Source of the DNA: Verrucomicrobiales bacterium
Lineage (GTDB): Bacteria > Verrucomicrobiota > Verrucomicrobiia > Limisphaerales > CAIMTB01
Direction of reading: 5' to 3'
Length of the DNA: 34,720 bases
Assembly: GCA_020845805.1 (NCBI GenBank)
Contig: JADLFD010000175.1
Location: 1-34,720, forward strand
Positions 2,930 through 24,354 of the stretch are shown in pieces (positions within the stretch are counted from its first letter, which is position 1; each line of letters begins with the position of its first letter). Made by a program: the position numbers and the translations under genes. Below the pieces are notes generated by a model, which saw nothing but the letters and a program-made list of their open reading frames with translations, ran no database searches and had not been told where the DNA came from.

Positions 2930-3640
2930 ATGCCGGCGGATGGAGATCATCCCTCCCCGGTGCGTATTCTCGTGGTGGAGGACGAAGAAAAGGTGGCGGG
3001 CTTCCTGGCGGAAGGCCTGCGGGAACAGGCCTTCGCCGTGGACCTCGCCACCGATGGCGAGGAGGGCATCTACCGTGCGCTTAATACCGCGTACGATCTG
3101 ATCCTCCTCGACGTCATGCTGCCCAAACGGGACGGATTCTCGGTCCTCCGCGCCTTGCGGCAGGCAGGGCAGACGACGCGCGTGATGATGCTGACCGCCC
3201 GGGACGCGGTGGCCGACCGGGTCCATGGGTTGAACGAGGGAGCGGACGATTATCTCCCCAAGCCGTTCGATTTCGACGAACTGCTCGCGCGGATCGCCGC
3301 GCTCCTGCGGCGTCCTCCCACTGCGGTCGCCGAGGAACTTTGGTGCGCGGACCTGAGACTGAATCGGCGAACGCGGGAAGTGGTTCGGGGTGATCTGCCC
3401 ATCGAGGTGTCGGCCAAGCAGTTCGCCGTGCTGGAGTATCTGATGCTGCGAAAGAACGAGGTGGTGGATCGCAGCCAGCTGGCTGAGCACGCGTGGGACG
3501 AGGATCTCGATCCGCTCAGCAACGTTATCGACGTGACGGTGCACCACCTGAGATCGCGCATCGACAAGGGACACCACGTCCGGCTGCTGCACACAGTGCG
3601 CGGTGTGGGCTATGTGCTGCGCGAAGGGAAGGGGACCTGA
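2930..3640 (+). CDS. OmpR/PhoB-family two-component response regulator
   Basis: ILVVEDEEKVAGFLAEGL, LILLDVMLPKRDGFSVL, LPKPFDFDELLARI, and a C-terminal winged-helix DNA-binding domain (VHHLRSRIDKGHHVRLLHTVRGVGYVL). ATG at 2930 lies 1 nt after the previous stop. Confidence 0.95.
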   Translation: MPADGDHPSPVRILVVEDEEKVAGFLAEGLREQAFAVDLATDGEEGIYRALNTAYDLILLDVMLPKRDGFSVLRALRQAGQTTRVMMLTARDAVADRVHGLNEGADDYLPKPFDFDELLARIAALLRRPPTAVAEELWCADLRLNRRTREVVRGDLPIEVSAKQFAVLEYLMLRKNEVVDRSQLAEHAWDEDLDPLSNVIDVTVHHLRSRIDKGHHVRLLHTVRGVGYVLREGKGT

Positions 3641-5064
3641 TGCTCTCGCTGCGAGCACGCGTGGCCCTCGGCGTTGGCCTCCTCGTGGTGGCCGCCCTGG
3701 TGGCGTTCGCCTCGCGCTTCTACCAGGTGACCCTGGAATGGACGCAGCAGAACGCCCTCGAACTGGCCAAGGACAAAACCATCCGGCTCGGCCGCTGGGT
3801 GCCCACCGATCGCCCTGAGTTCGAGGAGGCCGCGCGTTCCGCCTTCGAGGACGCGGTTCAGGGGTTCCACGGCGCCGTTCTGCCCGCGAGCGGGGTCTTC
3901 GACCGCCGTCAGGCTTCCCGCTACTTCCCTGAGGGCGACTTCTCCGTCCCCAGCACCTGCCTTACCAACGCGGAACCGTGGCGTGAACCGCACGCTTCGA
4001 TCCGGGAGGCCGCCAACGGCGAACGCTACGCCGCGGCCTGGTATCCGATCGGTCACGGTCCCCGGCTCTCGCAACCGCCCGCCGGGTGGACGGTCGCCGC
4101 GGTGCCCCTCGCCGATCTCCAACGGCGCACCACCGCGCTGCGCGGAAACATGATCGTGCGCATCCTCTCCATCGCCGTCAGCATCACCGTGCTGGCATAC
4201 CTCCTGGTCGGACTCTGGACCCGCTCCCTCACCGTGGCGGCGGAGTCGGCGGAGCAGTTGAGCCAGGGCGAACTGGGCATGCGCGACCTCGCGGTGCCGC
4301 GGGGAGAAGGGGAGCTGCGCCGCCTGGTGCTCGCCTTCAACGCGCTGCTGGAACGCCTGCGCCAGCTGCACGCCGTCCAGCAGCGTTTCGTGGCGGATGC
4401 CGCCCACGAGCTCCGCACGCCCCTGACCATCCTTCGCGGCGAGATCCAGGTGGCGCTCCGCAAGGAGCGCGACCTGGGGCGCTACCAGGCGGTCCTGCAC
4501 AGCAATCTCGAGGAGGTGGTCCGGCTTTCCCGGCTCACGGACAATCTCCTGGCGCTCGCCCGGGCCGACGCCGGGGAAGGGCTCCACCAGTCCTCGCGAC
4601 TCTGTCTCCGCGCCGCCTGTCAGTCCGTGTGCGAGAAGCTCGGACCGATCGCCGAACACGCCGGCATCCGGTTGTCCACGGAAGGGGCGGAGCAGGCCGA
4701 GATCCACGGGGACCCGGTGGCGATCGAACGGATCGTCGTCAACCTGGTGGAGAATGCGCTACGGCATTCGGAACGAGGCGACGCGGTGCGCGTGCAAATC
4801 ACCGACTCCGCGCAAGTGGCGGCGATCGAGGTGGTGGACGAAGGGACCGGAATCCCTCCGGAGCACCTGCCTCGGATCTTTGACCGGTTCTACCGCGTCG
4901 AATCCGCGCGCACTCGCGACTCCGGCGGGGCCGGCCTCGGGTTGGCCATGGTCAAGGCCCTCACGGAATTGCATGGCGGACGCGTGGCGGTGCGCAGCGA
5001 TTTCGGCGCCGGTGCCACCTTCTTGGCCGAGTTCCCCAAAGGGCCGCGTTCACGCGCCACGTAA
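3640..5064 (+). CDS. HAMP-domain sensor histidine kinase
   Basis: HisKA motif AHELRTPLTILRGEIQVAL, N box NLVENALRHS, G boxes DEGTGIPPEHLPRIFDRFYR and GGAGLGLAMVKALTELHGG. Start overlaps the RR stop (TGATG). Confidence 0.95.
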   Translation: MLSLRARVALGVGLLVVAALVAFASRFYQVTLEWTQQNALELAKDKTIRLGRWVPTDRPEFEEAARSAFEDAVQGFHGAVLPASGVFDRRQASRYFPEGDFSVPSTCLTNAEPWREPHASIREAANGERYAAAWYPIGHGPRLSQPPAGWTVAAVPLADLQRRTTALRGNMIVRILSIAVSITVLAYLLVGLWTRSLTVAAESAEQLSQGELGMRDLAVPRGEGELRRLVLAFNALLERLRQLHAVQQRFVADAAHELRTPLTILRGEIQVALRKERDLGRYQAVLHSNLEEVVRLSRLTDNLLALARADAGEGLHQSSRLCLRAACQSVCEKLGPIAEHAGIRLSTEGAEQAEIHGDPVAIERIVVNLVENALRHSERGDAVRVQITDSAQVAAIEVVDEGTGIPPEHLPRIFDRFYRVESARTRDSGGAGLGLAMVKALTELHGGRVAVRSDFGAGATFLAEFPKGPRSRAT

Positions 5065-21247: not shown

Positions 21248-22816
21248 TCAGTGCTTCCCCACCAGCGCGTACTCCATGGAGTCGACCAGCGCCTGGAGGC
21301 TCGCCGAAATGATGTTCTCGGAAACCCCGACGGTCCCCCATTCCGCCGTGCCATCAGTGCTGGTGATCAACACGCGGGTCCGCGCCGCCGTGCCGGCCAC
21401 GCCGTCCAGGATCCGCACCTTGTAGTCGGTCAGCGTGACCTTCCGGATGCGCGGGAAGGAACGTCCCAAGGCTCGGCGCAACGCCCCGTCGAGCGCGTTC
21501 ACCGGCCCGTCCCCCTCCGCCACCTCATGATGCACGGTGTCTCCGACCCGGACTTTCACCGTGGCTTCGCACACGGTCTCCGGACCGTTCGAACGCATCG
21601 AAACGTGGTACGAATCCACGGTGAACAGCAGTTCCGGATTCCGATCCAACACGCCGCGGATCAGCAATGCCAGGGAGGCCTCCGCCGCCTCATACTCGAA
21701 CCCGCGCGCTTCCAGTTCCTTCACCTTCGAGGTGATGGCGCGCGTCTCGTCCGCATCCGACCCCAGCTTGAAACCGAGTTCCGCCGCCTTCATCAGGATG
21801 TTGGTGCGCCCGGACATGTCGCTGACCAGCACGCGGCGAAAGTTGCCCACCGATTCCGGGGTGATGTGCTCGTAACTGCGCGCCACGCGGTCGATGGCGT
21901 GCACATGCATGCCGCCCTTGTGCGCAAACGCGGTCTGCCCAACCCACGGCTGCCGCGGGTCGTGACGCACGTTGGCGATCTCGTCGATGAACTCCGACAG
22001 TTCCTTCAGCTTGGGCAGCGACTTCGCCGGCACCCCGGTCAACCCCATCTTGAACTCCAGCGTGGGCATGATGCTGGTCAGGTTGCAGTTCCCCGTCCGC
22101 TCGCCATACCCGTTCATCGTCCCCTGGACCTGCGAGGCGCCCGCATCCACCGCCGCGATCGCGTTGGCCACGCCAAATCCACAGTCGTTGTGCGTGTGAA
22201 TACCCAGGCGGCAGGTGAGCTTGCCCTTCGCCATGGCCGTGATGCGCGCGATCTCGGACGGAAGCCGGCCACCGTTCGTATCACAAAGGACGATGCATTC
22301 GGCCCCCGCACGCTCCGCCGCCTGCCAGGTGGCCAGCGCGTACTCCGGCTCGTCCTCGTAGCCGTCGAAACTGTGTTCCGCGTCGTACATCACCACCTTG
22401 CCGTGGTCGCGCAGGAACTTGATGGTGTCCGCGATCATCGCAAGGTTCTCGTCGGGCTTGGCACGGAGCACCTCGGTGACGTGCAACAACCAGGTCTTCC
22501 CCACGATGGTCACCACCGGCGTCTCCGCCTCCAGCACCTGACGCATCAACGGATCGTTCTCGACCGCCATCCCCTTGCGCCGCGTCATGCTGAACGCCGC
22601 CACCCGCGCTGACTTCCAGCGCTTCCGCGCGGCCCGCTGGAAGAACTCCATGTCCTTCGGATTCGACCCCGGCCAACCGCCTTCGATGTAGTGAACGCCA
22701 AACTGATCCAAGCGCTCGGCAATGCGCAGCTTGTCCATCAGCGAGAAGTTGATGCCTTCCGCCTGGGCGCCGTCGCGCAGCGTGGTGTCGTAGATCTCCA
22801 CTCGGTTCTTTTTCAT
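21248..22816 (-). CDS. cimA: (R)-citramalate synthase
   Basis: MKKNRVEIYDTTLRDGAQAEGINFSLMDKLRIAERLDQFGVHYIEGGWPGSNPKD, LGIHTHNDCGFGVANAIAAVDAGASQVQGTMNGYGERTGNCNL, C-terminal LeuA-dimer-like regulatory domain. Confidence 0.93.
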   Translation of the reverse strand: MKKNRVEIYDTTLRDGAQAEGINFSLMDKLRIAERLDQFGVHYIEGGWPGSNPKDMEFFQRAARKRWKSARVAAFSMTRRKGMAVENDPLMRQVLEAETPVVTIVGKTWLLHVTEVLRAKPDENLAMIADTIKFLRDHGKVVMYDAEHSFDGYEDEPEYALATWQAAERAGAECIVLCDTNGGRLPSEIARITAMAKGKLTCRLGIHTHNDCGFGVANAIAAVDAGASQVQGTMNGYGERTGNCNLTSIMPTLEFKMGLTGVPAKSLPKLKELSEFIDEIANVRHDPRQPWVGQTAFAHKGGMHVHAIDRVARSYEHITPESVGNFRRVLVSDMSGRTNILMKAAELGFKLGSDADETRAITSKVKELEARGFEYEAAEASLALLIRGVLDRNPELLFTVDSYHVSMRSNGPETVCEATVKVRVGDTVHHEVAEGDGPVNALDGALRRALGRSFPRIRKVTLTDYKVRILDGVAGTAARTRVLITSTDGTAEWGTVGVSENIISASLQALVDSMEYALVGKH

Positions 22817-22851
22817 GGCGTCCGTCTCTCGTGTCCTGCCCCCGAAAGCGC

Positions 22852-22884
22852 GAAACCCCGTTCCGGATCGCGGAACGGGGTTTC
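22852..22884 (-). terminator. Perfect 14-bp hairpin between short upstream ORF and cimA (terminator or attenuator)
   Basis: GAAACCCCGTTCCG(22852-22865)-GATCG-CGGAACGGGGTTTC(22871-22884) on the + strand; perfectly symmetrical stem, 5-nt loop, A/T at base and G/C above. Confidence 0.7.
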
Positions 22885-22900
22885 AGCGGGGGAAACTCGT

Positions 22901-23032
22901 TCAGCGACCTCGTGGGCGAGGAATAATCGCGATCCCGCCGAGGCCGATCCCAAGGCTCACCCCACCGGATCGCCCGCCGATCCGCGGCTCCATCCCCCAG
23001 CCAAGGTTGGTGAGCACCTGCATGGCCGCCAT
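22901..23032 (-). CDS. Short BCAA-rich ORF, possible leader peptide of cimA
   Basis: MAAMQVLTNLGWGMEPRIGGRSGGVSLGIGLGGIAIIPRPRGR*, reading checked codon by codon. Stop is 16 nt before the 14-bp hairpin. Start codon uncertain (longer options exist upstream). Confidence 0.4.
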   Translation of the reverse strand: MAAMQVLTNLGWGMEPRIGGRSGGVSLGIGLGGIAIIPRPRGR

Positions 23033-23301
23033 CAATGCCAGATCCGCCCCTCCCACCTCAAGCCCCCAGTTGACGCCCTGATTCCCTGGCGCGCATGACA
23101 GATTGCCCCGCCTGTGCGCGTCTTCGCCACAAATCCATGTCGCGGACCGCCGCGTCCGGTACGGTGCCACCAGGCAAGCAAGGCCACGAACGCACCGTGC
23201 CGGCTCCGCTCGCCAAGGGAGTCCGGCCCCGGGACCCCGGTCGCCACGTCCCTTCGCGGTCCCACGCGGTGGCCACTGGTGCCATTCACGCTCCTGCCGC
23301 C

Positions 23302-24354
23302 ATGAACCCACACCTCGCCGCCTGGGCCATCGAGCCGGACCAGTTTCCCGCCGACGGGTTCGCCTCGGACCGCCTGGAGTTTCTGCTCCACTACGCCATC
23401 CTCGCCCCGTCCCCCCACAACACGCAGCCCTGGCTGTTTCGCGTGAATGTCAGTGACGTGGAACTCTTCGCCGACCGCCGTCGACAGCTTCCCGTCACGG
23501 ATCCGCTGGGTCGCGAGCTCACCCTCAGCTGTGGCGCCGCACTCTTCAACCTCCGGGTCGCCGCGGAATACTTCGCTCAGGCCTACACCTACGAAGTCCT
23601 CCCTGACCCGCGCACACCCCAGCTCCTCGCCCGACTCACCCTGGGAGGGACCGCCGAAACCAGCGCCGATGACATCGTCATGTTCGGCGCCCTGATCGAA
23701 CGCCGCACCAACCGCGAGCCGTTTGACCCGGAACCCGTCCCCATCGAAGTGCTCGACCTCATCGCCGCTGCCGCCGCCCGTGAAGGCGCCTGGGTGGAGG
23801 TGATCGCCGATGACGACCGCCGTGCCGCTGCCGCCGCCCTCGTCGCCCAGGCCGATCGTGTGCAATGGGCCAATCGCGATTTTCGCAGCGAACTCGCCCG
23901 CTGGATCCGCACCGACGCCGAACGCCAGGCCGACGGCATCCCCACTCGTGAAATGGGCGTCAGCGATTGGATGGCCTTCGCCGGACCCGCCCTCGTCCGC
24001 ACGTTCAACCGCGGCAATAACCAGGCCGCGCGCGACGCCGATATCGCTACACACTCTCCCGCCTTGGTGGTGCTGGGTACCGACACCGATGACCCCGCCG
24101 CCTGGGTGAATGCGGGCCAGGCCCTGGAGTCCGTCCTGTTGCACCTCCAGGCTGAGGGAATTGCTGCGTCGTACCTGAATCAACCCGTCGAGATCACCGA
24201 AACGCGCCGCGAGCTCACCGATCTCATCGGACGTGCCGGCTATCCCCAGGCCCTGATGCGCATCGGCCGCGGCCAATCCGTTCCGCCCACGCCCCGACGC
24301 TCCTTGCGCGGCGTGCTGCTCGCCCAGGACCACTCCAAGGATCCGCCGCACTGA
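23302..24354 (+). CDS. Acg-family / nitroreductase-like FMN-binding protein
   Basis: LLHYAILAPSPHNTQPWLFRV, CGAALFNLRVAAEYF, RRTNREPF, SPALVVLGTDTDDPAAWVNAGQALESVLLHLQAEGIAASYLNQPVE typical of Acg-like nitroreductases. Confidence 0.85.
   Translation: MNPHLAAWAIEPDQFPADGFASDRLEFLLHYAILAPSPHNTQPWLFRVNVSDVELFADRRRQLPVTDPLGRELTLSCGAALFNLRVAAEYFAQAYTYEVLPDPRTPQLLARLTLGGTAETSADDIVMFGALIERRTNREPFDPEPVPIEVLDLIAAAAAREGAWVEVIADDDRRAAAAALVAQADRVQWANRDFRSELARWIRTDAERQADGIPTREMGVSDWMAFAGPALVRTFNRGNNQAARDADIATHSPALVVLGTDTDDPAAWVNAGQALESVLLHLQAEGIAASYLNQPVEITETRRELTDLIGRAGYPQALMRIGRGQSVPPTPRRSLRGVLLAQDHSKDPPH

Follow-up and report, generated by a model that had tools for sequence, protein, structure and literature searches.

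In the enteric ilv, leu, thr, his and trp leaders, a short ORF in which codons for the regulated amino acid abound is combined with a terminator and a mutually exclusive antiterminator. Citramalate synthase, the product of cimA, commits pyruvate to isoleucine by a threonine-independent route. Here we analyzed a region upstream of cimA that follows the same ORF, terminator and antiterminator logic as E. coli ilvGMEDA and the other enteric attenuators. It differs from them in that its leader is rich in isoleucine only, it precedes citramalate synthase and it belongs to another phylum. In addition, the 5' strand of its antiterminator (region 2) begins inside the leader stop codon, and a conserved protector hairpin was not supported.

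Outside the enteric bacteria, upstream ORFs rich in branched-chain amino acids (BCAA) precede BCAA genes in the ilvB-II, ilvB-OMG and Leptospira ilvB motifs, and a terminator and an antiterminator have been modelled for ilvB-II (PMC10272879). These motifs precede ilvB and carry mixed BCAA codons, with Thr codons too in ilvB-OMG and Leptospira (PMC10272879), whereas the cimA element carries Ile alone; neither cimA nor Verrucomicrobia is mentioned in that paper. Candidate leader peptides have also been reported for genes of BCAA metabolism in Actinobacteria, namely ilvB, leuS and leuA, with terminators for ilvB and leuS (PMC1262725). They concern other genes in another phylum, and leuA there has a pseudoknot element (PMC1262725). 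We found no description of a cimA attenuator, or of leader-peptide attenuation in Verrucomicrobia, in the open-access literature, and a preliminary description of the present locus knew of no cimA case either. Ribosome-mediated attenuation is a known kind of regulation, and its probable use at cimA appears to be undescribed in that literature.

An isoleucine-rich ORF and a hairpin upstream of cimA

The window, that is, the whole stretch of DNA analyzed (34,720 nt), covers positions 1-34,720 of contig JADLFD010000175.1 from Verrucomicrobiales bacterium GCA_020845805.1 (Verrucomicrobiota, Limisphaerales). The element is intergenic, with cimA (21248..22816, minus strand) on one side and a divergent plus-strand gene, whose ATG is near 23302, on the other. 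Read along the minus strand, the order is an Ile-rich short ORF, its stop codon, a 14-bp hairpin and cimA. The identity of the downstream gene, the proposed target of control, was borne out by its 522-aa product, which matched the (R)-citramalate synthase model TIGR00977 at 685 bits (cut-off 450).

The short ORF with clustered Ile codons noted earlier on the minus strand (23032-22901; MAAMQVLTNLGWGMEPRIGGRSGGVSLGIGLGGIAIIPRPRGR) was recovered as described. Its start is probably not at 23032. In relatives, an ATG is most commonly found at a distance of 26-41 codons from the stop. This points to the ATG at 22993, in frame with 23032, and to a 30-aa peptide (22901..22993, minus strand; MEPRIGGRSGGVSLGIGLGGIAIIPRPRGR) whose frame and Ile codons are kept in relatives. 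The start codon had already been considered doubtful, and a search among the leaders for a Shine-Dalgarno consensus found none. The putative regulatory codons, ATC GGC CTC GGC GGG ATC GCG ATT ATT (22922..22948, minus strand), occupy positions -15 to -7 before the stop and include four Ile codons (ATC 22948-22946, ATC 22933-22931, ATT 22927-22925 and ATT 22924-22922).

The hairpin is a perfect 14-bp inverted repeat (22884-22871 / 22865-22852) with a 5-nt loop, present as a single copy in the genome. It is separated from the leader stop codon upstream by 16 nt and from the cimA ATG (22816) downstream by 35 nt; its length and both spacings agreed with the preliminary description on re-checking.

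The element is conserved in front of cimA

All four remaining genus genomes, and one genome of another family, carry the same block before cimA: TGAACGAGTTTTCC followed by GAAAACCCCGTTCCG-loop-CGGAACGGGGTTTTC. We built a covariance model on the block starting at the stop codon and searched 321 genomes of the order. Strong matches were obtained in 5/5 genus genomes, in 43 genomes of family f7 and in one genome of family f33. We examined 50 places: cimA was directly downstream in the sense orientation in 47, one was at a contig edge and two were false. The model matches L171 and L179 were rejected as leaders. The element stands just upstream of cimA, in sense, wherever the contig permits checking, and its recurrence there in about 48 genomes is more than chance. 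Occurrence away from cimA, which had been put forward as a finding that would speak against regulation of this gene, was not encountered. Among 390 genomes drawn across the phylum, the model matched only the window's own genome.

Two further observations concern the cimA genes themselves. A genus-level group within family f7, g117 (L142, L151, L152, L155, L160, L170 and L175), has the same leader in front of a cimA lineage quite unlike that of other f7 members, and looks as if cimA had been swapped behind a retained leader. In leaderless Limisphaerales families, cimA is often preceded, at a distance of about 20-50 nt, by the promoter-like motif TTTGC-N-GTAGAA (L005, L009, L010, L016, L018, L024, L025 and others), and in many cases a small CCCGC..GCGGG stem comes after the motif. 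The leader-bearing genomes in that scan all lacked this motif before cimA.

Leader codons are specific for isoleucine

We counted Ile codons over the last 25 codons of 47 leaders, in the frame set by the conserved TGA stop. There were 206 in frame, against 36.1 +/- 5.8 in shuffles (z about 29), and the two other phases held only 24 and 27 ATH triplets. After near-copies were removed, the remaining 36 leaders gave 150 Ile codons in frame versus 15 and 25 in the other phases. The share of Ile among these codons was 17.5% in frame, against 2.2% and 2.4% in the two alternative frames; the corresponding figure for cimA is 5.7%. The codons peak at positions -7 to -15 before the stop. Leu (4.9%) and Val (3.9%) were without enrichment. 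The leader is Ile-specific and is not rich in BCAA codons in general.

The leaders also favour ATT, a rare Ile codon in the cimA genes of these genomes: the ATT:ATC ratio is 110:70 in the last 20 codons of the leaders versus 152:1015 in cimA (Fisher p about 1e-41). The peptides are otherwise not conserved (e.g., MYPIAIGIIAIGPGPCR, MPMIGSIIIISGHRPC and GFGIAISRIIIPRTTRR). The prediction that homologous short ORFs would keep their Ile codons while the rest drifts was therefore upheld across the 47 leaders. In 11 of them (e.g., L143, L155 and L175) the last 20 codons contain two Ile codons or fewer, so some may be degraded or mis-framed.

Mutually exclusive terminator and antiterminator pairings

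The two arms of the hairpin, region 3 (GAAACCCCGTTCCG; 22871..22884, minus strand) and region 4 (CGGAACGGGGTTTC; 22852..22865, minus strand), form a stem that is 14-15 bp long across the leaders. In total, 96.6% of the cells in the alignment were paired, and four pairs had changed on both sides. The covariation anticipated by the preliminary description was present (0.130 versus 0.090 in shuffled alignments, a value reached by 0/500 shuffles), in an alignment that had been fitted to the covariance model.

The U-rich tail of the window (TTTCGCGCTTTC; 22844..22855, minus strand; its first bases are the stem end) is weak, as had been noted: the 12 nt that follow GGGG contain 6 T, compared with 7-11 in most relatives (mean over leaders 8.5, maximum 11). 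The U-tract of L135, for example, is strong. A terminator scan of the window did not call the hairpin. A sigma-70 promoter scan gave no match in the window, and no clear -10 element emerged upstream of the leaders. The distance from the stem end to the cimA ATG ranges from 11 to 72 nt across leaders. A transcription start after the hairpin had been named as a finding that would speak against attenuation, and the gap of only 11-17 nt in several relatives is too short for a promoter at that position.

The follow-up revealed a feature absent from the preliminary description. Region 2 (GAACGAGTTTC; 22892..22902, minus strand), a conserved non-coding block that begins inside the TGA stop, can pair with region 3 and form an antiterminator: GAACGAGUUUUC, from the UGA stop onward, pairs with GAAAACCCCGUUC of the terminator 5' arm. 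Counted from the second stop-codon base, the pairing is GAACGAGTTTTC with GAAAACCCCGTTC. Both structures need region 3, and they are mutually exclusive. The antiterminator forms in nearly all leaders, with its outer five base pairs in 47/47, and its mean energy is -7.7 kcal/mol versus -4.5 kcal/mol with region 2 shuffled, an average gain of 3.2 kcal/mol. In the subgroup L168-L177, the inner part has become CCTGGG and the pairing is retained with CCC (GGG/CCC in place of GUUUUC/GAAAAC), and the antiterminator there is no stronger than in shuffles. The window and some other leaders have both arms shortened by one base pair. When region 3 was permuted among sequences, the loss of 2:3 pairing was slight and the result borderline (p about 0.05), since the two strands hardly vary. 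We also looked across the leaders for a conserved protector hairpin between regions 1 and 2, which was not supported; it can form in some leaders, on average no more than in shuffles.

A proposed attenuator responding to charged tRNA-Ile

We propose that cimA is, with high probability, under ribosome-mediated transcription attenuation, with charged tRNA-Ile as the signal that is sensed. The leader-peptide attenuator reading of the preliminary description is thereby supported, the sequence-level comparisons that it suggested having all come out in its favour. RNA polymerase would start upstream and make the leader, and a ribosome translating the short ORF would follow behind. Under a shortage of Ile-tRNA, this ribosome would be expected to stall on the Ile codons at positions -15 to -7 relative to the stop. 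The stall would free GAACGAGUUU(U)C, from the UGA stop onward, to pair with GAAA(A)CCCCGUUC; this antiterminator pairing would keep the terminator from forming, and cimA would be transcribed. When Ile-tRNA is plentiful, the ribosome would reach the stop codon and cover region 2, the 14-15-bp terminator would form and transcription would end before cimA.

Judged from the general size of ribosome footprints, a ribosome at the stop codon would cover region 2, and one at codons -7 to -15 would not. The locus displays the sequence-level features of ribosome-mediated attenuation. The leader ORF carries an excess of Ile codons, which specify the end product of the controlled pathway, as cimA commits to isoleucine. 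A predicted intrinsic terminator lies between the leader and the first gene, with a weak tail in the window itself. Finally, there is a mutually exclusive antiterminator, whose blocking by the ribosome we infer from geometry.

The same leader could sense isoleucine and act on translation, with the hairpin hiding the cimA ribosome-binding site. The weak U-tract of the window would fit this, rho-independent termination is not yet proven in these bacteria, and two Verrucomicrobiales loci (L057 and L060) have Ile leaders without an evident terminator. We nevertheless consider translational control improbable, since, given the spread in distance between stem end and ATG, sequestration of the start region in the stem cannot be general, and most relatives have T-rich tails.

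Two readings would dissociate the region from isoleucine, and we regard both as very improbable. In one, the product of the short ORF is itself a small functional protein, and the hairpin serves as an ordinary terminator or as a processing site. The frame is indeed open in all members, but the peptides are unrelated between leaders apart from Ile and an Arg-rich end, their length and start vary, no minus-strand gene ends at the hairpin, and the neighbour is divergent. In the other, which we judge just as implausible, the hairpin block would be explained as a repeat, a riboswitch or a T-box, and the Ile codons would be incidental. Although a conserved non-coding block does follow the stop codon, the hairpin is not repeated in the genome, the block is always in front of cimA and the Ile enrichment is strictly in frame. 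Rfam searches at gathering and relaxed thresholds brought no family to threshold, including T-box and BCAA or ppGpp riboswitches. The rnk leader gave a sub-threshold match only (E 0.15) and was discarded.

Isoleucine-rich leaders before cimA in other phyla

In a scan of 113 cimA upstream regions, 8 short ORFs had five or more Ile within ten codons; the opposite strand gave 2 and shuffles gave 0.3. They include one from Limisphaerales, two from Planctomycetota (L083 and L096) and three from Patescibacteria (L036, L043 and L181). In the latter five loci the Ile-rich ORF has a hairpin downstream, with a strong U-tract in L083, L096 and L181. The UGA stop of the planctomycete L096 lies inside a strand able to pair with the terminator arm, a putative antiterminator. 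Examples of the patescibacterial leaders are MKSRTAIIISGIIIPSERGGLACVR and MQMSKKIIITAIIITSPNGGGLARV.

In a quick tree, the cimA genes of L036 and L043 nest inside Limisphaerales cimA, which suggests horizontal transfer. In the class to which the patescibacterial locus belongs, only 4 of 387 genomes have cimA at E <= 1e-90. The L036 contig also carries a 16S rRNA match 3' of cimA (3538-4363), in which 826 bases span the whole 1533-position model, with much missing. The Verrucomicrobiales loci L057 and L060 encode SSIIITAIIIG and SSIIITAIMIG, respectively, each up to the stop codon, upstream of cimA; their Ile codons are at a strong hairpin with no clear terminator, perhaps reflecting a different mechanism.

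It is possible, although we would not call it probable, that Ile-only attenuators of the citramalate route arose repeatedly (in Limisphaerales, Planctomycetota and Patescibacteria), with the stop codon inside the antiterminator in Limisphaerales and at least one planctomycete, and that g117 kept its leader while cimA swapped lineage.

Product-matched leaders within the genus

We also read the regions upstream of leuA and ilvB by eye from the sequence, without statistics. In 5/5 genus genomes (L113, L114, L116, L117 and L118), a Leu-rich leader (e.g., NLLLTGALLLSSAAAGR) and then a GC-rich terminator-like hairpin stand before leuA; the leader in the window genome is IRFSTNLLLTGALLLSSAAAGR (L113, G000:C822). 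Similarly, ilvB in 5/5 genus genomes (L184-L188) follows a Val/Leu-rich leader and a terminator with a 6-9 T run (MLDRVDVPTLVVGLAVTGPAEGWRCA in the window genome; L186, G000:C143). The leader amino acid matches the gene behind it (Ile for cimA, Leu for leuA and Val/Leu for ilvB), which provides an internal control.

Amino-acid-specific leader-peptide attenuation would thereby be extended to citramalate synthase and to Verrucomicrobiota. The covariance model may serve as a genome-scale marker for leaders that annotation pipelines easily miss. Together, the cimA, leuA and ilvB leaders suggest that each BCAA arm in this genus has its own product-matched leader, and the set would offer a clean natural system for testing codon-specific sensing.
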